A stretch of DNA of 64,000 nt from Rhodococcus triatomae. GTDB lineage: Bacteria; Actinomycetota; Actinomycetes; Mycobacteriales; Mycobacteriaceae. Location of the stretch: the NCBI RefSeq assembly GCF_014217785.1, contig NZ_CP048814.1, forward strand, positions 3,224,001 through 3,288,000, in the 5' to 3' direction. Under the pieces are notes generated by a model that saw only the letters and a program-made list of their open reading frames with translations, did not search any database and had not been told where the DNA came from. A program made the position numbers and the translations under genes. Within the stretch, counting starts at the first letter, position 1; each line of letters begins with the position of its first letter. Positions 2,598 through 41,131 of the stretch are shown one piece after another.

Positions 2598-3359
2598 GCA
2601 GCTCCCGAAGGAGCTGCGACCCCCGAACGAGAGGGTCGGCTGGTGTTCGCTGGTCGTGCCTCAATGAAGGGCAGCTCCCGAAGGAGCTGCGACTTCGGTC
2701 TCCCTCGTCACCCGCACCGTGTCCGCGAGCGGGCCTCAATGAAGGGCAGCTCCCGAAGGAGCTGCGACTCGAGCAGCTCGTCGGGCCGGTGAAGTGATGG
2801 ACGAGGCCTCAATGAAGGGCAGCTCCCGAAGGAGCTGCGACCGCCGCCTGGTCGGTCCTCAACGCGAACCCCTACTCGCCTCAATGAAGGGCAGCTCCCG
2901 AAGGAGCTACGACTGGGAACATCCGTGCCTGGGATGACCCCGACGGAATCGGGCGCGCCTCAATGAAGGGCAGCTCCCGAAGGAGCTGCGACGCCAGCGG
3001 CGACGACGTCACCGCCTCGATCTGCCGGGCCTCAATGAAGGGCAGCTCCCGAAGGAGCTGCGACGGTGGGGAGGTGGGAGGCGATGCCAGAGGGGAGGCC
3101 GCCTCAATGAAGGGCAGCTCCCGAAGGAGCTGCGACCGCCAGTCGGCACGAGCACGCTCTGTGCGTCTCAGAAGGCCCCAATGAAGGGCAGCTCCCGAAG
3201 GAGCTGCGACTTCTGGCCGATCCATTGTGCGCGGCCTCCAATTCCCGCCTCAATGAAGGGCAGCTCCCGAAGGAGCTGCGACGACGCATACGCCGACGAA
3301 CTCGAAGCGGCTGGTTTTACCATGCCTCAATGAAGGGCAGCTCCCGAAGGAGCTGCGAC
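2598..3359 (-). CRISPR. CRISPR array 1, leader-distal part
   Basis: Ten 36-base repeats start at 2658, 2733, 2806, 2878, 2957, 3029, 3101, 3175, 3247 and 3324, with spacers of about 36-43 bases, preceded by a truncated terminal repeat at 2598-2620. On the + strand each repeat begins GCCTCAATGAAGGGCAGCTC, passes through a CGAA loop and ends GGAGCTGCGAC. The conserved leader lies to the right, so the array is transcribed leftward. The copy at 2878 ends CTACGAC, and the copy at 3175 begins GCCCCAATG. The terminal copy lacks 16 bases compared with the matching end of array 4, between two GC dinucleotides. The array continues at 4782 beyond an insertion sequence. Confidence 0.97.
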
Positions 3360-4781: not shown

Positions 4782-5343
4782 GCCTCAATGAAGGGCAGCT
4801 CCCGAAGGAGCTGCGACCAACATCGAGTCCGCCGAGACCGCGACCCCCAGGCTCTTCGCGCCTCAATGAAGAGCAGCTCCCGAAGGAGCTGCGACCCCCA
4901 GCCGACGCCAACCCCGCGTTCCGGAGGATCCGGCCTCAATGAAGAGCAGCTCCCGAAGGAGCTGCGACACCCACCGGTCAGCGATAGTGCCGCGCCGGAT
5001 CGCCGTGCCTCAATGAAGAGCAGCTCCCGAAGGAGCTGCGACCATGAAGCCCCGGTGGGATTGCCCGCTGGGGTTTTCGTCGCCTCAATGAAGAGCAGCT
5101 CCCGAAGGAGCTGCGACGGTGATCGAGCGCAACGTCGTCGTGAGAACCCATACCCGCCTCAATGAAGAGCAGCTCCCGAAGGAGCTGCGACTCCACCGGG
5201 CTGTCGGCGGTGGAGCGCACCTGGGGTCGCAGGCCTCAATGAAGAGCAGCTCCCGAAGGAGCTGCGACCTCGAAGGAGAGAAGTGATCATGGCGAAGGCT
5301 GATCCCAGCCTCAATGAAGAGCAGCTCCCGAAGGAGCTGCGAC
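4782..5343 (-). CRISPR. CRISPR array 1, leader-proximal part
   Basis: Eight repeats start at 4782, 4860, 4933, 5007, 5082, 5156, 5233 and 5308. The first has the same sequence as the leader-distal repeats (GAAGGGCAG). The seven nearer the leader all carry G to A (GAAGAGCAG). The spacer next to the leader (5269-5307) contains AAGGAG followed nine bases later by ATGGCGAAGGCT, so it looks as if it was taken from the start of a coding gene. The leader is at 5344 onward, so transcription runs leftward until it meets the insertion sequence. Confidence 0.97.
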
Positions 5344-5525: not shown

Positions 5526-5783
5526 ACTCGGCGACAGGGCTCGGCGACAGACGGTCGTCCGATTGGGGCAGCCGACGGTATCGCGGTGAGGCGCGATCAC
5601 CCTCGGGCGTGGTCGTCGCCGCGCTCCGGCGTGTGCACGCCGATGCCGACGTGTATCGGCACCGCCGTTCGACCGGGCACGCCCCACGACAGTGACACGC
5701 AACCGGAGAGAAGAGCGGGTCGGCGATCAGTGAACACCTGTCGAAGGGCGCCGCGGCCCCTCGCCAGGTTCCTTCCACGGCGG

Positions 5784-6764
5784 TCACCGAGCCGTCTCGG
5801 TGTTCGGTCGGGAGCCCTCGACGAGGCGGGACAGGCGAGGGCTCTGGGCGCGGAGCCAGGCGGCACGCCCGGCGGGGTCGTCGGTGCCGAGTATTCGGCC
5901 GATCAGTTCGGCGGAGCGTTTCCCCGGCCGGCGGGATTCGAGCAGCCACATGTGGATACGGTCGCGCCGCTCGTCTGATGCCCGCCACGCGACCTCGGCC
6001 GCATACAGCCGGAGTTCGTGAGTTACCGACCCGTGCGCGATCAAGCCAGATACCGCCTCGTCCGGGCAGGACGGGTGCACAGCGATCTCCAGCAACCGTG
6101 GGCAGTGCGCACGAGGATGTGGCGATCGCAGATACCGCGTGCTCTCGGCGACGATGAGTCGATCCATGACGTCCGGCGGAATGTCGTTGCGCCGCAGCAG
6201 TTGCGCAGCCACGCGTTCGTCGGATGCCGAGGCGAGCAGTGCATCGTGCGAGCACGCCGGATTGCGCAGCGCCTCGGTGCGCACCTGCTCGTTCGGATGG
6301 TGCGCGGCGAGCCAGCCGAGCAGAGGCGTGTCCGCGCTCGCGCGTGCGCACGTCATCGCGGCCCGGTGTTCGAGCGTGTACTCGAGGCCGTAACTGATTC
6401 CCGGATAGAGGGGCAACTGTTCGAACGTGTAGCAAGGGTGGGAGCCGGACACGAGGCCTTCCAGCGTGATCTGTTCGGCGCGATCGAGATCCTGCAGGAC
6501 TGCAGTATCCGGCCGGTCGGTCACCTGCCCCACCATCTGATCAATCGAGTTGAGCATGTGCTCTCGGTCCCAACGGCGATCACCGACGGATTCGCGCCAC
6601 GCGATCGTGCGGACGGTGCGATGGCGTGCGGTGAGCCGGACGAGGTCTCCGGGGCCGTCGACGGCGCCGACGTCCACTCCGGAAACACTGCACCACAGCC
6701 CGTCGCGACCGTCGCGGCGTGTGTATCCGAGCGCGTGAAATATCTGTTCCCAGTTGTCGTTCAT
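5784..6764 (-). CDS. HEAT/leucine-rich-variant-like repeat protein
   Basis: 326 residues, started at MNDNWEQIFH because the ATG overlaps the stop of the upstream gene (ATGA). The C-terminal two thirds are short repeating helical units such as LLGWLAAHHPNEQVRTEALR and DALLASASDERVAAQLLRRN, the pattern of actinobacterial variant leucine-rich or HEAT-like repeat proteins. There is no signal peptide and no catalytic motif was seen, so a scaffold or binding role is the simplest reading. It is co-transcribed with the RNase H-domain gene and lies in the defence island. Function unknown. Confidence 0.75.
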   Translation of the reverse strand: MNDNWEQIFHALGYTRRDGRDGLWCSVSGVDVGAVDGPGDLVRLTARHRTVRTIAWRESVGDRRWDREHMLNSIDQMVGQVTDRPDTAVLQDLDRAEQITLEGLVSGSHPCYTFEQLPLYPGISYGLEYTLEHRAAMTCARASADTPLLGWLAAHHPNEQVRTEALRNPACSHDALLASASDERVAAQLLRRNDIPPDVMDRLIVAESTRYLRSPHPRAHCPRLLEIAVHPSCPDEAVSGLIAHGSVTHELRLYAAEVAWRASDERRDRIHMWLLESRRPGKRSAELIGRILGTDDPAGRAAWLRAQSPRLSRLVEGSRPNTETAR

Positions 6765-7850: not shown

Positions 7851-9926
7851 ATGACTACCGACACATCCATGGACTCGGCCCTGTTGCTCACTCGCTCGGG
7901 GATTGCGGCGCTCGCCGGCGTCCGGCGTCCGGTGGTGACCGTGTGGGCAGATCGTTACCGAATTGGGGGCGATCCGTTCCCGGCGCCGGTGCAGTCCGTG
8001 GGTGGCCAGGACCGGTTCGACGGCGCCGAAATCGTCGCATGGCTGACGCGGCGGAGGCTGGGCAACAATGACGCGGTGGCCGAGGATCTCGCCGTGCATG
8101 CTGCCCTCGATCACCGCAGCGACCTCGAGCCCGGTGTCGTGTTCGAGGGAATCACCGCACTGCTGTGCCTGAAATGGATGATGGGTGCGCAGCTGGGTGA
8201 TCTGGACACCGAGGAGCTCCTGGACGAGGCCGACGAGCACGATCCCGACGACGAGATGGTGTATTCGGAGTTGATCGCGCTCGGGCCGGAGCTGCGGACG
8301 ATGGCCCTCTACGTGGATCGCATCGCCGACGCCGCGTACACGCCACTCGACGCGTTCGAGGTGCTCATGCGGCAGCGAACGCGCTATCCGCACCTGGGTT
8401 CGGGTCCGGCGGGCGTAGCCGCCCGTGCATCGGCGATGGTTGCGGCAGTTGCGACTTCGTTGGCCGACCCGGATCACGCAACGTTCGTCGATCCGATTCC
8501 CGGAGGCACCGATCTGCTGGTGGCCGTGCGAAGGCGCCTACCGGAGTACGCGAGCCCGGTGGCAGCGGTCGCGAGTGACGGCGGCCCGGTGTCGCGGCTG
8601 GCGCGGCGTCGCTTGACCGTGCACGGGTGGACACTACGCCGCGGCGGCGTCGACGACGCGGCAGCCGTGCACGATCGCGCGGTGTTCGTCATGCAGTATC
8701 CGGTCTCGTCACGGGCGGCGGATTCGCCGGTGGACGTGCTCACCGAGATCGATGACGTCACCCTGCGGATGGGGGAGCGGCACACCGCGGTGGTGCTGGC
8801 GCCGGCCCGGATCCTCGTCGATCCGTTGCGTGATGCCGCCGCCTCGCGGGTTCGTTCGGACATCCTCCGGTCGGACCGGCTGCGGGCGTCGATCCGATTG
8901 CCGGAAGGCCTCGTCCCGTCCGCTCCGGGGTTGCCACTGGCGCTGTGGGTGCTGGGCTCCGCAGACGACTCGGTTCCGCCGGCAGAGCGACGGGCAGTGC
9001 TGGCCGACATCGGTGACATCGACCTGAACGAGGCGGTCACGTCCGCGATCGTTTCCGACGTGACGGCAGCGATGGGCTCGCCTGCGTCGGTGCGGGCACA
9101 CTCGTTCCAGTTCGGCGAGCTCGAACGTACCGCCACATTGCTCGCGCAGGATGCACACGGTGCGCTCTCCGGGCGCCGGAAGCGGCCACGCGCGCGGGTC
9201 GAAGGTGCCGACATCGCCGTGCGCGCCGGAGTGCTGGTGGACCGTATCAACCGCGCGGCGACATCCACGCGATCGACCGTGACGATGCCGCTCGAGTACC
9301 GCAGCGGCGGTGCGGCGAGGATACGCACGGTCGGGGATCTCGTGTCCGAGGGTGTCGTCCGGATGGTGCCCGGCAACCGGATCGATCCCGACGACGTCGT
9401 GGCGGACGCAGACCACCGGGTGATCGGGCCGGACGAGGTATTCGGCCGCTGCGCGGTCGGTTCCCGGGGGATCGACCGGCTGACCTTCGCGGCCGACTAC
9501 CCCCGGGGCCGCTTCACCGTGCAAGGCGACATCGTCGTCTGTGGGGACGCCGATTTCGGGGTGCTCATCGACCACGAGGGTGCGGCCGTCGTGCTTGCGC
9601 CAGCGCGGGTGTTGCGGATCGTGGATCCCGATGCCGGGCTCCTTCCGGAGGTGGTGGCCGAGTGCCTACGCGGCGCCAAGACCCGGACTCGGCCCCGGCA
9701 GGGTGTACGGACCGGCGCGCGCTGGGGCGGGTGGGAGGTGCCGCAGTTGCGATCCGACCACGCGCAGGCGACCAGGGCGGCGCTCGAGGAATTGGCTCGG
9801 CAGCGCAGGGCCGCTGCCGAACTGGTGCGAAATATCGATCTCTTGACGACGACGGTGGTCGACGGACTGGCACGAGGTGTGCTGGTGGTCACCGACGCGT
9901 CCACGGAAAGCACGGAGGAAGGCTGA
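7851..9926 (+). CDS. Pseudo-methylase with N-terminal HTH, first gene of the type I RM operon
   Basis: 691 residues. The ATG at 7851 is chosen because GGAG lies about seven bases upstream; the ATG at 7845 is too close to it. Residues 1-75 look like a DNA-binding helix-turn-helix (GIAALAGVRRPVVTVWADRY). The centre has the layout of an HsdM-type N6-adenine methylase, but its motifs are degenerate: FVDPIPGGTDLL stands where DPxxGxGG is expected, and VMQYPVSS where NPPF/Y is expected. The C-terminus (ALEELARQRRAAAELVRNID) resembles HsdS conserved helices. It is probably inactive as an enzyme and may act in DNA binding, assembly or regulation. It stops two bases before hsdM. Confidence 0.7.
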   Translation: MTTDTSMDSALLLTRSGIAALAGVRRPVVTVWADRYRIGGDPFPAPVQSVGGQDRFDGAEIVAWLTRRRLGNNDAVAEDLAVHAALDHRSDLEPGVVFEGITALLCLKWMMGAQLGDLDTEELLDEADEHDPDDEMVYSELIALGPELRTMALYVDRIADAAYTPLDAFEVLMRQRTRYPHLGSGPAGVAARASAMVAAVATSLADPDHATFVDPIPGGTDLLVAVRRRLPEYASPVAAVASDGGPVSRLARRRLTVHGWTLRRGGVDDAAAVHDRAVFVMQYPVSSRAADSPVDVLTEIDDVTLRMGERHTAVVLAPARILVDPLRDAAASRVRSDILRSDRLRASIRLPEGLVPSAPGLPLALWVLGSADDSVPPAERRAVLADIGDIDLNEAVTSAIVSDVTAAMGSPASVRAHSFQFGELERTATLLAQDAHGALSGRRKRPRARVEGADIAVRAGVLVDRINRAATSTRSTVTMPLEYRSGGAARIRTVGDLVSEGVVRMVPGNRIDPDDVVADADHRVIGPDEVFGRCAVGSRGIDRLTFAADYPRGRFTVQGDIVVCGDADFGVLIDHEGAAVVLAPARVLRIVDPDAGLLPEVVAECLRGAKTRTRPRQGVRTGARWGGWEVPQLRSDHAQATRAALEELARQRRAAAELVRNIDLLTTTVVDGLARGVLVVTDASTESTEEG

Positions 9927-9928
9927 GT

Positions 9929-11545
9929 ATGCCACCGAGGAAGAAGTCCGCGTCGTCGGCGCCGTCGACGATGAAGGAGCTCAAGGACACGCTCTGGAAG
10001 GCCGCGGACAAGCTGCGTGGGTCGATGGACGCCTCCCAGTACAAGGACATCATCTTGGGGCTGGTGTTCCTCAAGTACGTGTCGGACGCATTCGAGGAGC
10101 GTCGCGCCCAGATCCACGACGAGATGGTTGCGGAGGGCTTGGACGAGGACGCGATCGTCGAACTCGTCGACGTGCCCGACGAGTACGTCGGTGGCAGCGT
10201 GTTCTGGGTGCCCGCACCGTCCCGGTGGTCCTATCTCGCCGAGAATGCGAAGGGCATCCAGGAGAGCAGTTCCGCAGATGCGAAGACCATCGGCCAGGTG
10301 GTGGACGATGCGATGCGCGAGCTGGTTGCGGCCAATCCGACGCTCGAGGGCATCACCCAGACGTCGTTCAACAGCCCCGCGGTCGACCAGCGTCGGCTGG
10401 GCGAGCTGATCGACCTGCTCGGCGATACGCGGTTCACCGGTCACGGGGCGACCAAGGCCCGCGACCTGATGGGTGAGGTGTACGAGTACTTCCTGGAGAA
10501 GTTCGCCCGTGCCGAGGGGAAGCGTGGTGGCGAGTTCTACACCCCGCCGGGCGTGGTGCGGGTGCTGGTGGAGGTGCTCGAGCCGTACGGTGGGCGCGTA
10601 TACGACCCGTGCTGTGGGTCGGGTGGCATGTTCGTGCAGACGGAGAAGTTCATCGAGCGGCACGGCGGTAGCCCCACCGAGGCTGCGGTGTACGGGCAGG
10701 AGTCCAATCAGCGGACGTGGCAGATGGCGAAGATGAACCTCGCCATTCACGGCATCACCGCCAATCTCGGTGGCAAGTGGGACGATACGTTTGCCCACGA
10801 CCGGCACCCGGATCTGCTGGCCGACTACGTGCTGGCGAATCCTCCGTTCAACATCAAGGATTGGGCCCGCCGCGAGGACGACAAGCGCTGGCGCTTCGGC
10901 GTTCCGCCGTCCGGCAACGCGAACTATGCGTGGATCCAGCACATCGTGTCGAAGCTGGCCGAGCGTGGCAGTGCCGGCATCGTCATGGCCAACGGCTCGA
11001 TGTCCTCGAACTCTGGCGGCGAGGGCGAGATCCGGGCCCAGCTGGTCGAGGCCGATCTGGTGTCGTGCGTGGTGGCGTTGCCAACCCAACTGTTCCGCAG
11101 CACCGGCATCCCGGTGTGCGTGTGGTTCCTGGCGCGGGACAAGAGCGCCGGGCCGAAGGGGTCGGTCGACCGGCAGGGCCAGGTGTTGTTCATCGACGCC
11201 CGCAATCTCGGCTACATGGTCGATCGTGCCGAGCGGGCGCTGTCCGGGGAGGATATCGCGAAGATTGCCGGTGCGTTCCATGCCTGGCGCGGAACGGAAT
11301 CCGCCGGTGATGCGGTGTACAAGGACGAACCGGGATTCTGCTACTCGGCCTCACTCGCCGAGATCAAAGAGGCCGGCTATGCGTTGACCCCCGGCCGGTA
11401 CGTCGGTGCCCCGCAGCTCGAGGACGACGGCGAACCCATCGGCGAGAAGATCGAGCGCCTGACGAAGGAACTGTTCGCGCAGTTCGAGGAGTCGGACCGG
11501 TTGCAGGCGGTTGTGCGTGAGCAGCTGGGGCGGGTGTTGTCGTGA
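9929..11545 (+). CDS. hsdM: Type I restriction-modification methyltransferase subunit HsdM
   Basis: 538 residues. An N-terminal helical domain (LWKAADKLRGSMDASQYKDI) is followed by the N6-adenine methylase core with motif I DPCCGSGGMF and catalytic motif IV NPPFN. The phrase GGEFYTPPGVVRVLVEVL is typical of HsdM. It transfers a methyl group from S-adenosylmethionine to adenine in the site chosen by HsdS, protecting host DNA and forming part of the restriction complex. The start is the ATG two bases after the preceding stop. The stop overlaps the hsdS start (GTGA). Confidence 0.96.
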   Translation: MPPRKKSASSAPSTMKELKDTLWKAADKLRGSMDASQYKDIILGLVFLKYVSDAFEERRAQIHDEMVAEGLDEDAIVELVDVPDEYVGGSVFWVPAPSRWSYLAENAKGIQESSSADAKTIGQVVDDAMRELVAANPTLEGITQTSFNSPAVDQRRLGELIDLLGDTRFTGHGATKARDLMGEVYEYFLEKFARAEGKRGGEFYTPPGVVRVLVEVLEPYGGRVYDPCCGSGGMFVQTEKFIERHGGSPTEAAVYGQESNQRTWQMAKMNLAIHGITANLGGKWDDTFAHDRHPDLLADYVLANPPFNIKDWARREDDKRWRFGVPPSGNANYAWIQHIVSKLAERGSAGIVMANGSMSSNSGGEGEIRAQLVEADLVSCVVALPTQLFRSTGIPVCVWFLARDKSAGPKGSVDRQGQVLFIDARNLGYMVDRAERALSGEDIAKIAGAFHAWRGTESAGDAVYKDEPGFCYSASLAEIKEAGYALTPGRYVGAPQLEDDGEPIGEKIERLTKELFAQFEESDRLQAVVREQLGRVLS

Positions 11546-12807
11546 GTGCTGAAACCAGTACGGGAGGTAGGGGGCCTACGGGGGGAGTGATCGCAGGGAG
11601 GTTCGCCTTGAGTGTCGGTATGCCGACCACCTTGAGTCAGCCAACAGGGTTCCGCTGGAGGCCTCTTGGCGAGCTGGCCCGACTAGAGAGTGGACACACG
11701 CCGAGTCGCAAGGTCGACGAGTACTGGGACGGTGAGATTCCCTGGATCGGTATCCGAGACGCGACGGCCAACCACGGACGAACGATCGACCACACCTTGC
11801 AGAACGTGACGCAGAAGGGGATCGAAAACTCGTCAGCGCGCATCCTGCCAGCTGGCACAGTGTGTCTGTCGCGAACTGCCTCGGTCGGCTACGTCGTCCG
11901 AATGGGGGTTCCGATGGCGACAAGTCAGGATTTCGTCAACTGGGTCTGCGGTCCTGGGCTGTCTTCTAGGTACCTTCGGTACCTTCTCGTCGCAGAGCAG
12001 GAGAGTGTGCGCAGGTTCTCTTACGGGACCACACATCAAACGATGTATTACCCCGAGGCTAAGGCCCTCCATGTGTGTGTTCCTGAACGTTCTGAGCAGG
12101 ATGCCATCGCTGAAATCCTCGGCGCCTTCGACGACAAGATCGCCGTCAACCGCAAGGTCGTGGAGACGGCAGCGGAACTTGCAGTTTCGATGCTTGCAGG
12201 CGGCAACCGATTCGTCGAACTGGGCGCTGTTGCAAGCTTGAGGAAGGCGACGTGCTCGCCAGCTCTGATGGGTGACATGGCAGTCGCTCATTTCAGTCTG
12301 CCCGCATTCGATTCGGGCGAGATGCCAGAGATCTCCAACCCGGTTGAGATCAAGAGTGCGAAGTTCGAGGTGGAAAAGCCGAGCGTGTTGATCTCCAAGC
12401 TCAACCCGCGTTTTCCCAGGGTGTGGAATCTCGCGAGGCTTCCCGCCGAGCGTGCGTTCGCCTCGACCGAGTTCCTGGTACTCGAGCCGATGTCGTGTTC
12501 CACCTCGGTGCTCTGGGCGCTTCTGCGGTCTCCTGTTCTTTCAGCTCAGCTGCAGTCGCAGGTCGCGGGTACTTCAGGGAGCCATCAGCGAGTGAAGCCA
12601 GCGGATGTCATGGCCAGCCAGGTCCCCGATCCTGAGCAGTTCAGTCCGTCGTTGCTCGATACGGTTTCCAGTTTGGGAACGCTGGTTGTTGATCGGCGGG
12701 AAGAATCTGCCTCTCTGGTCCGACTCCGCGACACCCTTCTCCCGCGACTGATTGCCGGTGAACTCCGTGTCCGCGATGCGGAGCGGGAAGTCGAATCCGT
12801 CCTCTGA
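11542..12807 (+). CDS. hsdS: Type I restriction-modification specificity subunit HsdS
   Basis: 421 residues from a GTG overlapping the hsdM stop. It has two target-recognition halves, each followed by a conserved helix: ERSEQDAIAEILGAFDDKIA in the middle and LVRLRDTLLPRLIAGELRV at the end, the usual HsdS layout. The first recognition domain starts near WRPLGELARLESGHTPSR. HsdS sets which split DNA sequence is methylated or cut. Base composition is noticeably less GC-rich than in the neighbours, as is common for exchanged specificity genes. The first 27 residues are dispensable-looking, so an internal start is possible. Confidence 0.95.
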   Translation: MSAETSTGGRGPTGGVIAGRFALSVGMPTTLSQPTGFRWRPLGELARLESGHTPSRKVDEYWDGEIPWIGIRDATANHGRTIDHTLQNVTQKGIENSSARILPAGTVCLSRTASVGYVVRMGVPMATSQDFVNWVCGPGLSSRYLRYLLVAEQESVRRFSYGTTHQTMYYPEAKALHVCVPERSEQDAIAEILGAFDDKIAVNRKVVETAAELAVSMLAGGNRFVELGAVASLRKATCSPALMGDMAVAHFSLPAFDSGEMPEISNPVEIKSAKFEVEKPSVLISKLNPRFPRVWNLARLPAERAFASTEFLVLEPMSCSTSVLWALLRSPVLSAQLQSQVAGTSGSHQRVKPADVMASQVPDPEQFSPSLLDTVSSLGTLVVDRREESASLVRLRDTLLPRLIAGELRVRDAEREVESVL

Positions 12808-13601: not shown

Positions 13602-13748
13602 GCCCTCAATGAAGGCTCGTCCGGGTGGAGGGCGGCGCCGCCCACCCGGACGAGATGCCGACTTGCGTCCGCACGACGCGGCTGCTCTCAGGTCACGCCT
13701 CAATGAAGGGCAGCGCACACCCAGCCTAATGGGCGCTGCCTCCCTGAC
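13602..13748 (-). ncRNA. Degenerate two-repeat CRISPR mini-array (CreA/CreR-like candidate)
   Basis: Two copies of the repeat's conserved end lie on the + strand at 13604 (CCTCAATGAAGG) and 13697 (GCCTCAATGAAGGGCAGC), in the same orientation. Their hairpins are remodelled. In the right copy GGCAGCGC pairs with GCGCTGCC around a longer loop. In the left copy CTCGTCCGGGTGG pairs with CCACCCGGACGAG. The left copy ends ATGCCGAC, similar to the normal TGCGAC. Between them is one spacer (13663-13696, 34 bases). Read leftward like a normal array, the RNA would have an intact CCTTCATTGAGGC handle followed by a guide. It lies 300 bases before the cas operon and has no leader. Such degenerate mini-arrays next to cas genes are typical of regulatory crRNA-like RNAs. 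Confidence 0.75.
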
Positions 13749-13771
13749 ATGCACCCGTGAGGTAGTGCTAG

Positions 13772-13787
13772 GTGACATGAGATCAGC
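13772..13787 (+). promoter_or_regulatory. Candidate target site of the mini-array guide, upstream of the cas operon
   Basis: GTGACATGAGATCAGC matches the first 16 bases of the predicted guide (GTGACCTGAGAGCAGC) except at positions 6 and 12. Pairing is lost after position 16. The three bases in front (13769-13771) are TAG, at the place of a protospacer-adjacent motif. The site lies 265 bases upstream of cas7. No confident -35/-10 pair was recognised, so it is not clear which promoter it would cover. Apart from this site and the inverted repeat at 13906-13953, the stretch 13749-14050 shows no convincing gene. Confidence 0.65.
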
Positions 13788-13905
13788 TAACGGTTGCCAC
13801 CGTGTCCGAATTCTGCAATTCTGGTACGTGCGTTCCAGGAGTTGTTGCCAGTAGGTCGCTGGCCGGGGCGGTGCCATGCCTCTCAGTGCCCTGCTGTTCC
13901 AGGTC

Positions 13906-13953
13906 GACCGTTCGTGCGGTGTGTTCGCGATGGTGAAGTCCGCACGAACGGTC
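13906..13953. promoter_or_regulatory. Strong inverted repeat in the cas upstream region
   Basis: GACCGTTCGTGCGG (13906-13919) and CCGCACGAACGGTC (13940-13953) are perfectly complementary around 20 bases. There is no T-tract. It may be a transcript hairpin (an attenuator, or the end of a short RNA) or a two-site operator for the cas operon. Confidence 0.6.
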
Positions 13954-14050
13954 GGCGGCGAGGTGAAACGCCTTCCTGAATGGGGGCGCGTGCTCGCGAT
14001 TTCGATGCTCGATCTCCAGTTTTCGCGCTTCATGACACGAAGGATCTCCA

Positions 14051-15253
14051 ATGCCCCAGCTCGACTACCAGACCCTGCTCGCCGCCTGCCGCCCCGGCGG
14101 ATCGAGTGCCTTGACCTCGGTCACCGACCTGAAGCCCGCGGGTGGCGACCACGCTGCCGTGGCGCCCGCCCGGTTCGTCCTGGGCGACAACTCCGTGTAC
14201 GCGTACGGCGTCCGCTACATCGACGGGGAGGCGCAGCAGACCGTTGACATCGACGGTAAGTCTTCGCAGGGTAATCGCTTCGAAAAGCCCCTCGCCGATG
14301 CGATTGCCGACGGCCACCCGCTGCTGTCCCGGGTGCCGCACGTGGCCGTCACCTACCGGGACGGCACCGAGGTCTACACCGACTTGCAGTTGCCACACCG
14401 TCTGTGGGACGGGCACATTCGCGCCGGAACGATCGACGGAGCTCCCGCCACCGACGATCCGCGCTATCGTGCAGCTCGCGATTCGTCCCCGGCCGACGCG
14501 AAGGCACTGCTCGAGACGAGCCCCACCAGCCTCGTCTTCGGGTCCTGGGACTCGACCCGCAAGTCGCATCAGGCGCGCTACCGGAGCGTGCTCGTCGGTG
14601 AGATCATCGGCGTCCTCGCCGACCAGGGCAAGGAGGCGCGCACTCCCAACCCACGCGGTGGCGCCCGCGTCGACCCGGTGGCAATGAGCGTGCGGCTCAC
14701 CGGCAAGGAACTTCAGGGCATCGTGGACGCGCAGGCATCGGAGTTGAGCCCCAAGCTGATCGAGAGGGTCGGCAAGACCATCAAGAGCGCAGGCACCAAG
14801 GCACAATCGGCGTCCGCACTGGGGCTCGGAGCGATCCCACCGAGCCTGGACCCACTCGGCTCGGTGGCGTGCAAGCGGATCATCCGCACCCACGTCCTCA
14901 GCTTCAGTGCCCTGCGCCAGTTGCGTTTCGGAGCCGGCCCCGACGGCGACGCCGCCGCGCGTGCCCTGCTCGCCGCGTACGCCCTCGCCGGCCTGGCCCG
15001 CTCGGATTCCGAGCTGAGCCTGCGCGCCAACTGCGATCTGGTCGAGTCCGGCAATCCCACCGTGACGCTCGATGCCCGCTACGGCAAGACCGTCGAGTTC
15101 GATCCGATCACCATCGAGACCGCCGACGCACTACTCGAGAAAGCGCTTGCCGAGGCGGAGAAGAAGGCCGACGTCACCTGGGACGGACTGGTGTTGACCG
15201 TCACCGGCAACCCGGCGATCCGGGCGGGCGCCGTCGCGGATGCGGACGAATGA
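14051..15253 (+). CDS. csb1: Type I-G Cas7 (Csb1/GSU0053 family), Cascade backbone
   Basis: 400 residues; AGGA lies seven bases before ATG. The sequence matches the Csb1/GSU0053 type of Cas7, with the N-terminal DYQTLLAACRPGGSSALTSV, the middle SPTSLVFGSWDSTRKSHQAR and VRLTGKELQGIVDAQASELS. Cas7 subunits polymerise along the crRNA and form the body of the interference complex. This is the first gene of a six-gene operon in which each stop overlaps the next start. The stop overlaps the csb2 ATG. The family assignment rests on sequence phrases and operon context. Confidence 0.92.
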   Translation: MPQLDYQTLLAACRPGGSSALTSVTDLKPAGGDHAAVAPARFVLGDNSVYAYGVRYIDGEAQQTVDIDGKSSQGNRFEKPLADAIADGHPLLSRVPHVAVTYRDGTEVYTDLQLPHRLWDGHIRAGTIDGAPATDDPRYRAARDSSPADAKALLETSPTSLVFGSWDSTRKSHQARYRSVLVGEIIGVLADQGKEARTPNPRGGARVDPVAMSVRLTGKELQGIVDAQASELSPKLIERVGKTIKSAGTKAQSASALGLGAIPPSLDPLGSVACKRIIRTHVLSFSALRQLRFGAGPDGDAAARALLAAYALAGLARSDSELSLRANCDLVESGNPTVTLDARYGKTVEFDPITIETADALLEKALAEAEKKADVTWDGLVLTVTGNPAIRAGAVADADE

Positions 15254-16809
15254 TGTGGGCCATCGTCGCCCGGTTCCTGCTGGGCACCTACACCGGACAC
15301 CGCGACGACGGGGCACCGGACCCGTTTCCCGACCCGGCCCGCCTGCACGCCGCGCTCGTCCACGCCGCCTGCCAGGGATCGACAGCTCTCGCCGATTCCG
15401 GCGGCAGCCTGCGCCCGTCACCCGAATCGCTCGCGGCGCTGCGCTGGTTCGAGAGCAACCCGCCCACCGGGATTCATCTTCCGGAGTCCGTGCCGATCAA
15501 CGGCGAGCGGGTCATTGCCTACCGGCACGAGGGCGTCGTCCGGAAGGAAGGCGCGGCGTGGACGGACAAGAAGACGCAGCGTCGCGTCGCCGACGGCTAC
15601 GCGTTCAACGGTGAGATCGCCTGGGTCTGGGAGCAGGAGCCGCCCGCCGACGTGCGTGACACCCTCGACGCTCTGTGCGCGGACGTCTCCTGCCTCGGTG
15701 AGGCCGCCAGCCCGGTGGTCCTCGAGGTCTCGTCCGCCGCGCCGGAACAGACGCTGCGATTGCGGCCGGAGGCATCGCGGTTCGCCGCCGGTGCCACCGC
15801 CGTTCGGGTCGCCGAGCCCGGCCGAGTCGACGCCCTTCTCACAGGTCATCAGAAGGCCAACGTCAAGCGCCCGACGACGGCACAGGACAGGCCCGCGAGT
15901 TCGGAGCTTCCGGCGCCCCATCCCGTGGTGACCACGGGTTTGGCGTCGGCTCAGTACTTTCCGGCCGATCCGGCTCCGGCCGCGGGGCCGTGGCAGGAGG
16001 TGATCCTGCTGCCGGTCGATCTCGACGTCGATTTCCGTGACCGCGTCCTCTGGTGCACCGCGCTGCACCGGGCGCTGGTCTCCCGGATCGGCTTCGGTGC
16101 GCCGTCCCTGGTCACCGGCGTGTACGAGCCGGGAGTACCGAGGCCCGCGAACCGGCTGGCGCTGCAGTACCTGCACCGCTCACTCCTCGGTCATCTGAAC
16201 ATCACCAGCGATGCGTTCGCGCTGATGATTCCGGCCGGGGCGGAGCAGGAGGACTACGCCGCGCTCACCGCCGCACTGGCGAACTTCCGCTACCTGCGAT
16301 CGCCCGCCGGAATGGTGCAGTTCGACGGCACCGTGCACAGCGTCCTCGCCGACGAGTTCTGGCCGGCGCCCGCGCCGCGCACCGTCCGCATGTGGACGAC
16401 GAACCCGGTGGCGGTAGCGGAGACCCGACCCCAGCGGGACGCGGTGCCGGCATGGACGCTGCAGGATGCGGCGTTGCTGTCGGTGGGTTTCGTGCTGCGC
16501 GACCGTTGGCAGCTCGAGCCCGGACGTGGATTGGCGTTCTACCGCAGCGTCGTCGAGCAGGCACGCGAGCGGGGAGTGCGCGTGCAGCAGGTTCGTGCGG
16601 TCGCCAAGCGGGACGCCGAGCGGTACGTCCACAAACTCCACCGAAACACGCCGGTCCTGACCTATTCGGCGACATTCGACGTCGGCGAGGCGATTCCCCC
16701 GCGGACGCTGTCGGCCGTGGGACAGTCGCGGCACCTCGGCGGCGGGCTCCTCGTGCCCGTCGACCATCCGGAGGACCTTGCGAACGCGCTGCGGGAGGTG
16801 CAGGGATGA
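15250..16809 (+). CDS. csb2: Type I-G Csb2 (GSU0054 family), fused Cas5-Cas6
   Basis: 519 residues from the ATG overlapping the cas7 stop. It opens with the Cas5-like strand WAIVARFLLGTYTGHRDD. The C-terminal half carries RAMP features including a glycine-rich loop (GQSRHLGGGLLVPV). Csb2 proteins combine Cas5, which caps the crRNA 5' handle, with Cas6, which cuts the repeat hairpin. No separate cas6 exists in the window, so this protein must process both hairpin variants seen in the arrays (stems with GCAGCTCC or GCACCTCC). Histidines in the C-terminal half (for example VHKLHRN) are candidate catalytic residues; this was not tested. Confidence 0.9.
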   Translation: MMWAIVARFLLGTYTGHRDDGAPDPFPDPARLHAALVHAACQGSTALADSGGSLRPSPESLAALRWFESNPPTGIHLPESVPINGERVIAYRHEGVVRKEGAAWTDKKTQRRVADGYAFNGEIAWVWEQEPPADVRDTLDALCADVSCLGEAASPVVLEVSSAAPEQTLRLRPEASRFAAGATAVRVAEPGRVDALLTGHQKANVKRPTTAQDRPASSELPAPHPVVTTGLASAQYFPADPAPAAGPWQEVILLPVDLDVDFRDRVLWCTALHRALVSRIGFGAPSLVTGVYEPGVPRPANRLALQYLHRSLLGHLNITSDAFALMIPAGAEQEDYAALTAALANFRYLRSPAGMVQFDGTVHSVLADEFWPAPAPRTVRMWTTNPVAVAETRPQRDAVPAWTLQDAALLSVGFVLRDRWQLEPGRGLAFYRSVVEQARERGVRVQQVRAVAKRDAERYVHKLHRNTPVLTYSATFDVGEAIPPRTLSAVGQSRHLGGGLLVPVDHPEDLANALREVQG

Positions 16810-19525
16810 CCGGGCCCGAGGGGATCGTGAAGCCCGCCGATTTCGCGGAGTTCTTCGCCGCGGTCAGCGGGCACCAGCCGTTTGCGTGGCAGATTCGTCT
16901 GGTCGACACCGTCCTCTCCGACGGCCGGTGGCCGGACCGGATCGTCGCGCCCACCGGCGCGGGCAAATCCAGCGTCGTCGACGTGCACGTGTTCCTCAAC
17001 GCGCTGTACGGCGCCGGGACCGGTCCGCGGGTGCCGCGGCGGTTGGCCGTGGTGGTCAACCGCCGCGCTCTCGTCGACAGTCACGCCGACCGGGCCGAGT
17101 ACCTGGGGAAGCTGCTCTCGGAGACCGAGGACGACAGCGTCCTGGGCGCGGTGCGCAGCGCGCTGGGCTCGCTGCGCGTCGTGGCCCACGAGGGGACGCC
17201 GACCGCCGCCGAGATCCTGCCTTTGACGCAGTTGCGGGGCGGCCTGCCGACCGATCGCTCCTGGGTGGACGACCCGAGCGCGTGTGCTGTCCTCTGTGCA
17301 ACCCCGGACATGTGGGGGAGCAGTCTGCTGTTCCGCGGCTACGGCTCGTCCCGCTATGCGCGCCCCCGCGACGCCGGGATGCTGGCGTACGACTCGGTGA
17401 TGGTGCTCGACGAGGCCCATCTCAACCGGCAGTTGCTCGTGACGGCGCGCCGGATCGCGGACCTCGAGCGCGACGCGCCGCAGCGTATCGGGGTGCCGGT
17501 GTTGCAGGTGGTCGAAACCACCGCCACGCCCGGCGATCCCGGGTCCGGTGTTCGGGAGGTCGGTGTGCTCGCAGGCGACATTGCTCCCGGTGGGGACGGA
17601 TCGGGTGAGGTGCTCCGGCGACGGCTCACCACGCCCAAGCCGATTCGCTACCTGCCGACGACGTACCCGAAGACGACCGGGCCGTACTGGGACGTGCTGG
17701 TCGAACAGGTTCTCGCGCAACACGAGAGGTTCGGCACGGCAAGCGGATCCGGTCGCTCCGTGGCGTGTGTGGTCAACACCGTCAAGGGAGCGGTCGAGAT
17801 GAGCACGCGTCTGAAGAAGCGGGGGCTGCGGGTGGTCACTCTCGTCGGCCGCATGCGCCGCTACGACGTCGCGCGGTTGCGCGACGAGCACGGCGGGCTG
17901 TTCTCGCTGGACGGCGATTCCGACGTCGACGTGCTGGTGGCCACCCAGACGGTCGAGGTCGGCGTCGACGCGGACCTCGCGTCCCTGGTCACCGAACTGG
18001 CGCCGGGTGCGGCGCTCGCACAGCGCGCGGGGCGGGTGAACCGGATCGGGAGATCGGCCGACACCGAGGTAGTGGTGGTGTCGACCCATATCGACGCCAT
18101 GAAGGATTGGCACGGTCCCTACCGGCGTGACGACCTGGAAGCCGCGAAGAAGTGGGTCGACCGCCTGGCCGCGACAGCCGACGGTATCGCCCCGTGGGCT
18201 GTGGCGTCCGACCCACCGCCGCCCGAGGCGCCCCGCCGCACCCTGTATCAGCGTCCGGAGTTGTGGGATGCGTGGTCCTGGGCGCGCACCACGGAGGAGG
18301 GGGCCGCGCGTGCGGACCTTACGCTGTGGCTCCGTGATTCCCTCGAGCGCGACCGATCGAGTTCCGGGATCGTGGTGCGTTCGCTACCCAGGGATGACGG
18401 GGGCGCGCTCGCGCTGCTGCGGGCCGCGCCGCCTGTCGCCGACGAGGTGTTTCCGTGCCAGCGGTGGGAGGCCGAGCATCGGCTCGCGGTGGTGTGGGAT
18501 GCGGACAAGGGCTATGACGACGATCTCCGTCGTCGTGCGTTCGTCTACCGCGATGGCGAGGTGGACGTCCTGGACAACGACGCAGCCGTCGAGGATGGCG
18601 ACATCGTCATTCTCGACGACATCCATCCCGTGGCCTATGAGGGTGTCGCGGTGGACGAGCCGGTCGCGAAAGCCAAGGACGTCTACAGCGAGTGCACCGG
18701 CGCCGAGGTCATCGTGTGGCGCGGCGACGAGGACCCGAGGAAGTGGGACAAGGATCAGCGGGACCTCGTCGACGCCGCGGAAGCGGACGACCCCCGCGAC
18801 GTTCTGGTACTCCGTGTTCCCGAGCCCCGGCGGGAGGAGGTGCGGCGCACTGCGCTGGTGGGCCCGCTGGCGCCGGACACCGTTGTCGTGCAGGCATTGT
18901 CCTGGGTGGTGATTCCTCGTGGTGCCGCCGCGATCGCAGCCGACGAGGAAGCCCGACAGGAATGGACGGCGTCGCGCGCGCCGGTGCTGTTGGACGACCA
19001 CAATGCGGCGGTCGCGGATCGAGGTCGCGCACTGGCCACGGTTCTGGGGGTTGCTGAGGACGTCGCCGAGGCACTCGCCTCGGCCGGGTTGCACCACGAC
19101 GCCGGCAAGGTCGACGTGCGATTCCAGAAGCTGCTCGGGGCGAAGGCGGAGGTGCTGGCCAAGAGTGAGCGGCGGACGGCCCAGTGGCTGGCCTCCGGGA
19201 AGGGTGCCAGCGGGCTGCCGGTGGGCTGGCGGCACGAGCAGCTGTCGGTGGTCCTCGCTGCCCCGGCAGTGGGCGATTCGCCGCTCGCGGATCTGGTGCT
19301 GCGGCTGGTCGGCACCAGCCACGGTCGTGGCCGGAGCGGCTTCCCGCACACGGCCGAGGAACTGATCGGTGCCGGCGGCCTCCCGGCCCACGCCGTGGAG
19401 TTGTTCGACGTCGGCACCTGGGACCGCATTCTCGATGACACTCACCGCCGATGGGGGGTCTGGGGTTCGGCATATCTCGAGGCCCTGCTGCGGGCCGCCG
19501 ACGGCCAGGTATCGAAGGAGGGGCG

Positions 19526-19529
<4 letters not shown>
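16806..19529 (+). CDS. cas3: Type I-G Cas3 helicase with C-terminal HD nuclease domain
   Basis: 907 residues from the ATG overlapping csb2. The helicase comes first: Walker A APTGAGKSS near residue 45, Walker B VMVLDEAHL, motif V VATQTVEVGVDADL and motif VI QRAGRVNRIGR. The HD-type nuclease is near residue 760 (LHHDAGKVDVRFQKLL), the helicase-first order that is usual in I-G/I-U systems and the reverse of most Cas3 proteins. Cas3 is recruited to the R-loop and degrades target DNA. All visible catalytic motifs are intact. A bridging region of about 300 residues between the helicase and HD domains is rich in acidic residues. Confidence 0.94.
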
Positions 19530-22487
<2,958 letters not shown>

Positions 22488-22490
22488 TTC

Positions 22491-22676
22491 CGAGGTGTTT
22501 CGCGAGCGCTCCGTCGGTGCACGATTTCCTGGGGAGCGCTCGCGTGATGTTTCCGCAGGTAGAGGCCATGTTCGTGCCGAAGAGTAGCCTTGAAGCCCTC
22601 AATCGGGGTGCTGAAAGCGGAGTGCTCGCGGGGAGGGTGCTCCGATGCTGGTCAGAGGGGGTAAATTTAGGGTGCT
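22491..22676 (+). promoter_or_regulatory. CRISPR leader of array 3
   Basis: Conserved with the leaders at 5344 and 41132 in inverted orientation. It includes GCGAGCGCTCC, TTTCCGCAGGTA and CAGAGGGGGTAAATTTAGGG directly before the first repeat. It shows that array 3 is transcribed rightward, away from cas2, and that all three arrays share one acquisition signal. Confidence 0.88.
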
Positions 22677-24041
22677 GTCGCACCTCCTTCGGGAGGTGCC
22701 CTTCATTGAGGCGTCGGTCGCATCGTCCGGGTTCGGTCGCGGCACGCCGTCGTCGCACCTCCTTCGGGAGGTGCCCTTCATTGAGGCTGAGCCGACGGAC
22801 GAGAGTGCGCACCCGCTCGGAATCCAGGTCGCACCTCCTTCGGGAGGTGCCCTTCATTGAGGCCGACACGGCCGCCGTCGGGTCCCTCGCCGCCGAGACG
22901 GTCGCACCTCCTTCGGGAGGTGCCCTTCATTGAGGCTCTCGAAGAGTTGGCCGCGGCCCTCGGCGACGACCCGAAGTCGCACCTCCTTCGGGAGGTGCCC
23001 TTCATTGAGGCGGTCGTCGGGTCACGTACGGAGGAGCCGAACCCGGTCGCACCTCCTTCGGGAGGTGCCCTTCATTGAGGCGGCATGCCGACGTATCTGC
23101 CCGGCGGCCAGGTCGTGGGTCGCACCTCCTTCGGGAGGTGCCCTTCATTGAGGCCAAAAAAATGCCCCCTGTCGGGATGGGGTGCCACGGCCGTCGCACC
23201 TCCTTCGGGAGGTGCCCTTCATTGAGGCTTCGATGACCCTGCCCGACTTCGCGATGGAGCACCTGGGGTCGCACCTCCTTCGGGAGGTGCCCTTCATTGA
23301 GGCTCGCCGGACGCCTCGGCCTCGAGCATCGCCGACACACGTCGCACCTCCTTCGGGAGGTGCCCTTCATTGAGGCCCGCAGCCCCGCACCGGACGCCGC
23401 CCCCATGCTCACCGAGTCGCACCTCCTTCGGGAGGTGCCCTTCATTGAGGCTGCTCTCCCGCTTCGGCCGGGCGAGGCGACTGGCAGCAGGTCGCACCTC
23501 CTTCGGGAGGTGCCCTTCATTGAGGCTCGAGGAACCGCAGCCGGAGGCGGTGGACGTCCCGGGTCGCACCTCCTTCGGGAGGTGCCCTTCATTGAGGCAC
23601 CATGGGAGCGCTCCGGCAGGCGTTCATCTACGCCGGTGGTCGCACCTCCTTCGGGAGGTGCCCTTCATTGAGGCGGCGAAACCGTCGCCGACGCCAACGC
23701 CGACATGAAGAAGTCGCACCTCCTTCGGGAGGTGCCCTTCATTGAGGCGAATGGTCAAAGTCGTTCGCGGCCATGCAGCGTCACGGTCGCACCTCCTTCG
23801 GGAGGTGCCCTTCATTGAGGCACAGCTCCGGCGTCGTACATCGTGTACGACACGCCGCGGTCGCACCTCCTTCGGGAGGTGCCCTTCATTGAGGCGAGCA
23901 GCCCGTCCTCGTCGTGCGAGGCGGGCCGGACGAGGGTCGCACCTCCTTCGGGAGGTGCCCTTCATTGAGGCGGCGAGCACATGCTGCACCACTTCGACGA
24001 CCACGCGTCGCACCTCCTTCGGGAGGTGCCCTTCATTGAGC
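22677..24041 (+). CRISPR. CRISPR array 3, 19 repeats, next to cas2
   Basis: Repeats of 36 bases start at 22677, 22752, 22828, 22901, 22976, 23046, 23119, 23193, 23268, 23341, 23416, 23491, 23563, 23639, 23713, 23786, 23860, 23936 and 24007, with spacers of about 34-40 bases. Each begins GTCGCACCTCC, has a TTCG loop and continues GGAGGTGCCCTTCATTGAGG. The last copy has lost a G at its end (GAGC). The stem is GCACCTCC/GGAGGTGC, where arrays 1 and 4 have GCAGCTCC/GGAGCTGC, a paired change that keeps the hairpin. The spacer at 23155-23192 holds a run of seven A's next to a hairpin, like an inverted phage terminator. Confidence 0.98.
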
Positions 24042-24143
24042 GGAGCGGCCCGCTTGACGCGGCTCGACGTCGATAGCGGGAGGTTCTGGTTGTCCTTGGT
24101 TTGGTAGTTTTGACGGGCATTGGCGGTGGGACGAGTGGGGGAT

Positions 24144-39098: not shown

Positions 39099-41131
39099 GC
39101 CTCAATGAAGGGCAGCTCCGGCAGGAGCTGCGACCGGCCTGCGGATCCGACCACGGGTCCACTGCCTCGAGGATGCCTCAATGAAGGGCAGCTCCCGAAG
39201 GAGCTGCGACACCTCCTGCACGAGTGTGCCGTCCGCGTCGGTGTACGGGCCTCAATGAAGGGCAGCTCCCGAAGGAGCTGCGACTCGGCGGCGTGGAGCT
39301 CGGCCTCGACGTCGGACCACTCGCCTCAATGAAGGGCAGCTCCCGAAGGAGCTGCGACACTCGTCATGATGATGATTCCGCGGCTGCCGTAGTGGCTGCC
39401 TCAATGAAGGGCAGCTCCCGAAGGAGCTGCGACATCGCAGTGGGCTTCATCGTGTGGGCGATGTGGCGGCCTCAATGAAGGGCAGCTCCCGAAGGAGCTG
39501 CGACCGAACACCGGGCCGTTACTCTTGTACGCTCCGTTGACGCCTCAATGAAGGGCAGCTCCCGAAGGAGCTGCGACCCTGGGCAGAGAACCTCGCTGTC
39601 GTCGTCGGCGTACCGGCCTCAATGAAGGGCAGCTCCCGAAGGAGCTGCGACGCCGATCGCTACTGCGGTAGCTCACTCGGCGCGTCGGGCCTCAATGAAG
39701 GGCAGCTCCCGAAGGAGCTGCGACACCCGGCCGGCCCCCAAGTCCACAACATCGCGTCCGAGCCTCAATGAAGGGCAGCTCCCGAAGGAGCTGCGACCCG
39801 ACGCACGGAGCTCCGGCAGCGCCGCCTCGAGCGCCTCAATGAAGGGCAGCTCCCGAAGGAGCTGCGACCGCCGAGAAGCTGGGGAAGGACTGGTGGAAGT
39901 GAAGCAGCCTCAATGAAGGGCAGCTCCCGAAGGAGCTGCGACCCAGTCACCAGACGGCGACCGGCGACGCGGCTTGCGGGGCCTCAATGAAGGGCAGCTC
40001 CCGAAGGAGCTGCGACCGGATTCGGCCGTTGCCGGACAGGATGGCCTGCCCTCCAGCCTCAATGAAGGGCAGCTCCCGAAGGAGCTGCGACGCAGTCATG
40101 AGGGATTCATACCAGACGAATCGGACAGCCGCCTCAATGAAGGGCAGCTCCCGAAGGAGCTGCGACGGTCGACGAGCGACTCACCTAGCGCCCGGCTGAT
40201 CTCGCCTCAATGAAGGGCAGCTCCCGAAGGAGCTGCGACCGGAAGTAGCCTTCGCCGCGGCGGGCGGGATCGACGCCTCAATGAAGGGCAGCTCCCGAAG
40301 GAGCTGCGACGACGAGTTGTTCGAGCATCACCTCGGCGTTCTCGCGGCCTCAATGAAGGGCAGCTCCCGAAGGAGCTGCGACTTCGGCCACCCCACACGC
40401 CATCACGGAACCGGTGCTCTTCCGCGCCTCAATGAAGGGCAGCTCCCGAAGGAGCTGCGACTGCGGTCCTGCTGCCCGCGTGCACGACCGCCCGACTCAT
40501 GCCTCAATGAAGGGCAGCTCCCGAAGGAGCTGCGACGACTGTTCGCGTAATTGCGTGGGTGTCACCTGGTAGTGCCTCAATGAAGGGCAGCTCCCGAAGG
40601 AGCTGCGACATCGCGTTCATCGCGAACCTGGACCTGTGCGCGATGCCTCAATGAAGGGCAGCTCCCGAAGGAGCTGCGACACGCCAGCCGGAGCGGTCGC
40701 TGTGGACGTCCCATGCGGTGCCTCAATGAAGGGCAGCTCCCGAAGGAGCTGCGACGTCGAGAACAAGTTTCGCTACGGCGCCGCCGCCCCCGTCGGCCTC
40801 AATGAAGGGCAGCTCCCGAAGGAGCTGCGACATCGGCCTCCACGCGCATGCAGCACTGGGGGCAAATTCCGAGCCTCAATGAAGGGCAGCTCCCGAAGGA
40901 GCTGCGACGGTGCGGGCTCTACGGCCTTAACCCTGCACGACTTGGGGGCCTCAATGAAGGGCAGCTCCCGAAGGAGCTGCGACTCGGCACCGTGGTCGGC
41001 CTCGGTGCGGCCCTCGACGGCCTCAATGAAGGGCAGCTCCCGAAGGAGCTGCGACTCGACCCGGTGCGATGTCTCATCGCCACCCGCACGGAGGTGCCTC
41101 AATGAAGGGCAGCTCCCGAAGGAGCTGCGAC
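39099..41131 (-). CRISPR. CRISPR array 4, 28 repeats
   Basis: Repeat starts: 39099 (degenerate, CTCCGGCAGGAG in the hairpin), 39175, 39249, 39323, 39398, 39469, 39542, 39616, 39689, 39762, 39833, 39907, 39981, 40056, 40131, 40204, 40275, 40347, 40426, 40501, 40574, 40645, 40720, 40796, 40873, 40948, 41020 and 41096. The repeat is the same as the older repeats of array 1 (GAAGGGCAGCTC). The leader lies to the right, so transcription is leftward. The degenerate copy at the left end is the oldest, as expected for the leader-distal end. No spacer is obviously shared with array 1. Confidence 0.98.

Follow-up and report, generated by a model that had tools for sequence, protein, structure and literature searches.

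What is a crRNA-like mini-array doing directly in front of a type I-G cas operon, when its guide partly matches the DNA that lies between the two? The question is raised by a locus in the window, that is, the whole 64,000-nucleotide stretch of the Rhodococcus triatomae genome that was analysed. An earlier note on this DNA, made from the letters and their open reading frames, had proposed that the mini-array is regulatory; below, we describe its anatomy, compare it with related loci, and weigh this proposal against the alternatives.

The mini-array and its cas locus

The operon behind the mini-array (14051-22487) is complete and cas3-bearing and belongs, as had been assumed, to type I-G: csb1, csb2, cas3g, a cas4-cas1 fusion, cas2 and cas8g, i.e., all six expected cas genes, are present, with cas8g recognised through a PADLOC model only. 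A PDB search with csb1 returned no match. The features of the locus are:

2658..3359, minus strand: CRISPR array of 10 repeats
4782-5343: CRISPR array near the array at 2658-3359; its repeats end in TCTTCATTGAGGC rather than CCTTCATTGAGGC in 7/8 copies
13603..13654, minus strand: second degenerate repeat; hairpin of 39 nt (13654-13616) whose stem has 13 bp, followed by handle CCTTCATTGAGGG (13615-13603)
13655..13696, minus strand: guide (spacer) of the mini-array; the pairing part is bases 1-16 (13696-13681)
13697..13739, minus strand: first degenerate repeat; hairpin of 30 nt (13739-13710) with an outer stem of 7 bp, followed by the intact 13-nt handle CCTTCATTGAGGC (13709-13697)
13769..13771, plus strand: PAM-like TAG adjoining the target
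13772..13787, plus strand: target site, equal to guide positions 1-16 save 6 and 12
13794..13822, plus strand: candidate weak promoter, TTGCCA-17-AATTCT with TGc ahead of the second hexamer; the first hexamer starts at target position 23
14051..15253, plus strand: csb1 (cas7g), first gene of the operon
15250..16809, plus strand: csb2 (cas5-cas6 fusion), the expected crRNA-processing enzyme
16806..19529, plus strand: cas3g helicase-nuclease
19526..20581, plus strand: cas8g-like large subunit (PADLOC PDLC01374, E 2e-107; in NCBIfam, a Cas3-extension family only, below cut-off)
20575..22188, plus strand: cas4-cas1 fusion (NCBIfam cas4g/cas1g model below cut-off)
22191..22487, plus strand: cas2
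22677..24042, plus strand: CRISPR array of 19 repeats behind the operon; the final repeat is degenerate towards its end
39099..41131, minus strand: CRISPR array of 28 repeats with the same handle and a variant hairpin

Around the arrays, we also noted that CCTTGAAGCCCTCAATCGGGG (22588-22608), in the leader of the array at 22677, resembles a decayed antisense handle, and that near-identical tandem small lipoprotein-like genes lie just past the downstream array (about 24550-25081 and 25330-25860, by eye). Genes that we take to be type I restriction-modification-like, with the look of hsdM/hsdS, adjoin the CRISPR locus on its upstream side (about 9846-12807).

Two degenerate repeats enclose the guide, as the earlier note had claimed, each consisting of a hairpin and a handle (13709-13697 and 13615-13603). 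The handle of the first repeat is identical with the final 13 bases of the array repeat, an end common to the four arrays save the one that carries TCTTCATTGAGGC in 7/8 repeats, and exact CCTTCATTGAGG words number 58 in the whole genome, with two outside arrays, both of them in the mini-array (minus strand, 13709 and 13615). The hairpins of the mini-array differ in sequence from the array repeat and from each other, with the pairing kept. The spacer length of 34 bases given in the earlier note has to be revised: the spacer measures 42 bases up to the second stem, or about 39 if the three bases before the stem are assigned to the repeat, as is done for the array; in the array at 22677, spacers have 34-40 bases. 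With an intact 13-nt handle, hairpins, a guide and an adjoining cas operon, the mini-array has the make-up of a crRNA-like unit of the CreR kind. An immune CRISPR array would comprise at least three near-identical repeats and invader-derived spacers, whereas the mini-array has two repeats with unlike stems and a guide that matches the host locus. Rfam returned three matches, each below the gathering score, and a consensus promoter scan of the window region found no promoter. A protein-coding reading at 13777 (a 25-codon frame starting within the target) was dropped because the start would be upstream of the sole promoter candidate considered. Between the target and csb1, we also observed a perfect 14-bp inverted repeat (13906-13953; GACCGTTCGTGCGG/CCGCACGAACGGTC) without a T run.

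The reported 16-base match was recomputed and stands: the minus-strand guide at 13696-13681 equals plus-strand 13772-13787 save positions 6 and 12, positions 17-23 are all mismatched, and position 1 directly adjoins the handle, which ends at 13697. The target's first base lies 76 bases from the guide's first base. For 14 fixed positions, the chance of a match is about 3e-9 per site, with 4e-6 chance matches expected in the 680-bp region and 0.03 in the genome (both strands in either case). In the 4.77-Mb genome, only the guide and the target match the 14 positions with no mismatch, no site matches with one mismatch, and 28 sites do so with two, while a reversed-pattern control gave 36 sites in all. 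Shuffled upstream regions of the window reached the observed score in 0/100 cases.

Recurrence in related type I-G loci

Within the genus, this csb1 was present in only one of 28 genomes, namely that of the window, and conservation was therefore assessed at the family and class level. The whole-genome searches covered samples (28 genomes for the genus, and 401, 394, 242, 59 and 3 genomes); relatives of csb1 were gathered by such searches and by one genome-contig scan, and 20-kb stretches were taken. The pair search admitted any word with at most three mismatches from the local array handle, a default handle standing in at loci without a visible array; the best match of the 18 bases after that handle was scored with positions 6, 12 and 18 omitted and the PAM unscored. 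In total, 26 loci were examined, 21 with near-full-length csb1 relatives and five distant ones (L117, L118, L077, L120, L121); left out of the pair search were L116 (masked upstream), L070-L076, L078-L081, L119 and L122-L124, and L029 is truncated by a contig end. A degenerate repeat handle followed by a guide whose target lies in front of csb1 was found in the following 17 of the 21 related loci:

Rhodococcus triatomae: the window
Gordonia genus: L064, L065, L066
Corynebacterium-like genus (genomes of 2.3-3.1 Mb), eleven loci: L067, L068, L106-L114
Mycolicibacterium frederiksbergense: L028
Nonomuraea longispora: L029

That is, the pairing whose loss in relatives would have counted against the earlier proposal is retained in most of these wider loci, and the crRNA-like mini-array with a partial, PAM-proximal match before a type I-G operon recurs in 16 further loci with other guides. 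L026, L027, L069 and L115 (4/21) showed no pair in handle-based and handle-free searches alike, and the distant loci L077, L120 and L121 showed none either. In L066, two handles tied, and the one with TAT was taken with the PAM in view at the choice. In 15 of the 17 loci, no more than 0-4 of 100 shuffles did as well as the observed site; the figure is 19/100 at L065 and 14/100 at L109, where significance for the single locus is weak. Guides placed on the regions of other loci reached the observed score only at L065 (2/16), L108 (1/16) and L109 (2/16). The guides are mostly unrelated between loci (median identity 6/18; the closest pair beyond L067/L068 is L107/L108, with 13) yet still match their targets, and hence guide and target have been replaced together. 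As a control, we applied the same pipeline, with a TA condition, to 808 other windows from 16 loci: a handle-like word was present in 119, and three passed, two of which are genuine second copies of the module (L112 and L106; see below). No viral contig was found with the window's handle and the start of its guide.

The gene next after the target is csb1 in 17/17 loci. The target is on the cas strand in all 17, and the guide is on the cas strand in 13 and on the other strand in four (the window, L028, L067 and L068, where the mini-array is divergent). Twelve loci have a co-directional mini-array, with the target beginning 83-182 bases beyond the start of the handle; in L029, whose handle is co-directional too, the target begins 44 bases ahead of it, and in the window and L028 it lies about 62 and 24 bases upstream of the handle of the divergent mini-array. 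From the target start (13772) to csb1 there are 279 bases in the window vs. about 125-184 in other loci, the distances for L106, L109, L110, L114 and L066 being approximate because the start of the matched stretch was taken as the csb1 start. Candidate promoter-like pairs are clear in 5/17 loci (L106-L109 and L112, the last tied with another pair), with the first hexamer at target position 29-43, L113 has one at position 12, and the window's weak candidate starts at 23, while the pairs of the remaining loci are not clear. Counted from the PAM, a footprint of Cascade some 35-40 bases long would extend to these hexamers or at least to their edge. We also noted, by eye, a small GGAC...GTCC-type hairpin shortly before csb1 in L106, L107, L108, L111, L113 and L114, in some of them with a start codon in the loop.

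Pairing rule, PAM and split hairpin

Per-position counts over 16 loci (L068 was dropped as a near copy of L067) gave 16, 16, 14, 15 and 15 matches of 16 at positions 1-5 and 4 at position 6; 16, 14, 11, 11 and 14 at positions 7-11 and 5 at position 12; 16, 12, 9, 13 and 11 at positions 13-17 and 5 at position 18; then 11, 12 and 11 at positions 19-21, 7, 6 and 4 at positions 22-24, and background further on. Thus, positions 6, 12 and 18 match in 14/48 cases (background) and the remaining positions to 21 in 237/288, a figure in which the scored positions within 1-17 are inflated because the best site was chosen, whereas 6, 12, 18 and 19-30 are free of that effect. Positions 19-21, which were unused in the choice of site, match in 34/48 cases (P 3e-11 against 0.25), and positions 24-30 in 23/112. 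The backbone of type I Cascade flips out every sixth crRNA base, and the observed periodicity of mismatches, which extends across related loci the every-sixth-position tolerance that the earlier note had invoked, would be the signature expected of such flipping. No "every sixth" statement was found in the I-G structure paper PMC9638904, and the Acinetobacter I-F CreA is described as pairing at 17/20 positions, all save 6, 11 and 18 (PMC10097628, in excerpt).

TAN precedes the target in 17/17 loci (13 TAC, 2 TAG, 1 TAT, 1 TAA), while TA dinucleotides make up 1-6% of the upstream regions. Partial complementarity next to a PAM upstream of the organism's own cas operon, another mark of CreR, is therefore present as well. 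The array spacers of the window and three Gordonia loci were compared with phages (19 phage stretches taken), and nine spacers were counted, with 25-33 of their first 34 bases matching phages of actinobacteria; the count omits matches to Propionibacterium, Vibrio and other phages. Their protospacers adjoin TAN in 6/9 cases (TAC for the spacers matching Whack/Fairfaxidum, Clown, TPA4, Bakery and Sisko; TAG for NiebruSaylor) and CAC in 3/9 (LaterM, Soups/Mulciber/Apiary, Kuwabara). Second phages for the same spacers show TAC (Fairfaxidum), CAC (Mulciber, Apiary, ASegato), TGC (GMA1) and, poorly aligned, GCG (RedWattleHog). Among the window's own arrays, one spacer of 39099..41131 matches Rhodococcus and Gordonia phages with TAC adjoining, and one of 2658..3359 matches a Mycobacterium phage with TAG adjoining. 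Weak matches to phages of the proteobacteria Bordetella, Brevundimonas and Achromobacter adjoin AGA, ATC and GGC, and the poor alignment to LeMond (14/34) adjoins GTA; once these four weak or poor matches are included, TAN accounts for 6/13 spacers. The array spacers of L108 and L112 gave no match to phages.

As far as the excerpts available describe them, the Bifidobacterium I-G system has TAN, TAC or TAT (PMC7284854, PMC12915315) and another I-G system has TTN (PMC9638904). A second I-G branch in our set (L117 and L118) has handles of the CATTGCGGC/TATTGCGGC kind, and its best mini-array sites carry TTC, with 0/200 and 4/200 mononucleotide shuffles reaching the score; L117 also carries another PADLOC cas8g model than the window's. 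TTC in this branch would be consistent with a PAM tied to the large subunit, in two loci only, and both loci, promising as they are, were not included in the main tally. L117 has two TTC sites (5586 and 5621), the second 35 bases beyond the first and identical to it in its initial five bases, and the best mini-array site of L118 is at about -617 (reverse complement).

The 11 Corynebacterium-like loci differ in how the hairpin is built. The bases before the handle pair with bases starting 38-39 into the guide stretch, so that one stem encloses both handle and guide. Shuffled 3' arms do as well in 0-12/200 cases in ten of these loci and in 91/200 in L106, where the stem is broken, and L109 has an additional local 7-bp hairpin before the handle. 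With the spacing held fixed, pairing is seen in 94 of 121 cells vs. 31-67 once either arm is shifted relative to the other by 1-3 bases, at least two pair types occur at all 11 positions of the stem, and L106, L110 and L114 seem to need one base more. Judged from these sequences, the split hairpin looks like a repeat opened at its loop, the halves of which would derive from the two flanking repeats, and its base, seen from the handle side, would match what Csb2 meets in a normal repeat. Cleavage by the I-G Csb2 falls 4 nt from the base of the hairpin, and an 8-nt handle remains (PMC9638904, in excerpt); the enzyme may accept the split form too. For comparison, none of the 104 viral contig stretches with GCYTTTCATTGAGGC has split arms of at least 8, and two have a local hairpin of at least 7. 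These two IMG/VR contigs (L199 and L219) carry a hairpin of 7 and 9 bp, respectively, directly before TTTTCATTGAGGC, possibly as phage-borne repeat units.

Two loci hold second copies of the mini-array together with a PAM-bearing target (L112 at 5570-5974; L106 at about 14030-13363, minus strand). The copy in L112 is almost identical, lies about 870 bases further upstream, and precedes a 49-codon ATG frame at 5825, which is part of an 83-codon frame from GTG; the copy in L106 is diverged and precedes a 132-aa ORF with one hydrophobic stretch. Pfam searches with the products of both second copies gave no match, and it is possible that these copies are Cascade-sensing, toxin-like modules. Short frames starting MIITLV (17 and 15 codons) follow both L106 targets. 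At reverse-complement 5670 and 6675 of L106, these frames, MIITLVGGGDITVHK and MIITLVSGSDIKISTWN, may be leader peptides or minigenes.

Proposed mechanism, alternatives and known systems

Taken together, the sequence comparisons strongly support a regulatory guide and make it quite probable, in our view, that 13603-13739 encodes a CreR-like RNA through which the type I-G Cascade binds but does not cut the DNA and so keeps the cas promoter repressed. Under this model, a minus-strand crRNA-like RNA would be made from 13603-13739 and processed by Csb2 in the same way as a crRNA from an array; the product, consisting of the 8-nt handle ATTGAGGC and the guide, would be loaded into Cascade. The complex would then recognise TAG at 13769-13771 and pair guide bases 1-16 with 13772-13787, with positions 6 and 12 flipped out; this pairing would be too short for a full R-loop and cutting by Cas3, and the complex would therefore merely sit on the DNA. 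From there, between the divergent mini-array and the cas operon, it would repress the cas promoter (and, given the divergent layout of the window, possibly the promoter of the mini-array itself), so that free Cascade would limit its own synthesis until repression is lifted by invader crRNAs competing for Cascade or by Cascade inhibition.

The regulated gene is most likely the cas operon because csb1 follows the target in 17/17 loci; a small gene or RNA within 13790-14050 is the less favoured object of repression. Such an element is what an antitoxin role (CreTA- or CrePA-like) would call for: the guide would silence a small toxic RNA or peptide encoded in 13790-14050, with the result that loss of Cascade would harm the cell, and effects on cas would be secondary. 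The 263-base gap between target and csb1 would leave room for a small RNA, the second copies in L112 and L106 precede a 49-codon frame and a 132-aa ORF, the MIITLV frames stand behind both L106 targets, and CreT genes can be tiny (PMC8501985, PMC10097628, in excerpt). However, no toxin candidate was recognised in 13790-14050 of the window, no small ORF is common to the csb1 leaders of the Corynebacterium-like loci (by eye), the presumed start in L106-L109 and L112 is about 77-120 bases from csb1 and leaves little room, and the constant position of csb1 after the target also speaks against this role. We consider an antitoxin role improbable for the window locus; the toxin variant (CreTA, CrePA) may nevertheless apply to the second copies.

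That the guide mainly represses the promoter of its own mini-array, or another divergent transcript, rather than the cas operon would agree with the targets that lie upstream of the divergent mini-array's handle in the window and L028 and ahead of the co-directional handle in L029. In 12/17 loci, however, the mini-array promoter should be unaffected because the target is downstream of a co-directional mini-array and before csb1, which makes this reading very improbable. Partial spacer matches to self can occur, and degenerate repeats are to be expected in a decayed array remnant, i.e., a self-targeting spacer of accidental host origin that is tolerated because both repeats have decayed. Against such an origin stand the same place and geometry in 17 loci with mostly unrelated guides, a handle that is intact while the stem has changed with its pairing kept, mismatches concentrated at 6, 12 and 18, and TAN at every target; we rejected it as scarcely credible, based on the recurrence, the PAM and the periodic mismatches.

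Going beyond regulation of the window's operon by a CreR-like RNA, it is tempting to speculate that the I-G Cascade is governed by a dedicated guide RNA in several actinobacterial genera; that the Corynebacterium-like genus uses a circularly permuted repeat, in which half-repeats pairing around handle and guide would give a one-hairpin crRNA without a complete repeat; and that the module spreads within its locus, the second copies in L106 and L112 acting as an addiction or abortive-infection switch that senses Cascade. These three propositions are tentative, and that all of them hold jointly is rather doubtful. Self-regulation by a partially matching guide would be extended, by a comparison of 17 loci, to one of the least studied type I subtypes. 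The natural pairs also provide a rule for I-G Cascade (TAN by the target; positions 6, 12 and 18 free; pairing over about 16-23 bases), which makes binding without cutting directly testable and should aid in finding similar RNAs that are hidden by decayed repeats, and the split hairpin illustrates how small a part of a repeat might suffice for a working guide.

Several known systems are relevant here. In type II (Cas9 autoregulation by a natural single guide RNA; scaRNA), a partial guide leads to repression without cutting; the difference is a single-protein effector with a tracrRNA-derived guide and an unrelated anatomy. Shmakov et al. (2023; NAR gkad495) reportedly described mini-arrays and standalone repeats with spacers that partly match cas promoters in many type I systems and V-A; should type I-G be among them, the I-G case would merely add a member to that set. 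CreTA is known in I-B. It has also been described in I-F (PMC10097628, in excerpt), and it resembles the module reported here in its degenerate ectopic repeats around a guide and its partial target match with a PAM. In CreTA, the first repeat best keeps the 5' handle bases, and first repeats of haloarchaea likewise do so, but without a conserved hairpin (PMC9458426, in excerpt). The window differs from CreTA in that its target precedes the cas operon itself and no toxin gene was identified at the locus.

The closest match is CreR, a crRNA-like RNA encoded at the cas locus and partly complementary to the cas promoter region, with which the system's own effector represses cas until competing crRNAs or inhibitors release the repression (PMC12737573, in excerpt). 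The window shares with it the mini-array at the cas locus and the partial match with a PAM upstream of its own cas operon, and would share the repression as well. Types I-G and I-U have no mention in the main text of the CreR review PMC12737573, which names type I in general and V-A, nor was one found in PMC8501985; no I-G case of a CreA/CreR-type guide was among the literature matches listed, and a published case may exist. The split hairpin of the Corynebacterium-like loci was likewise not met in the excerpts of the CreR literature. Several type I subtypes and V-A have established CreA/CreR RNAs that combine degenerate repeats with a partial match (PMC9458426, PMC10097628, PMC12737573, in excerpt). 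That is, the principle is known in type I and V-A, and the newer parts are its probable appearance in type I-G, the split repeat, and the two second copies of the module in front of other genes.
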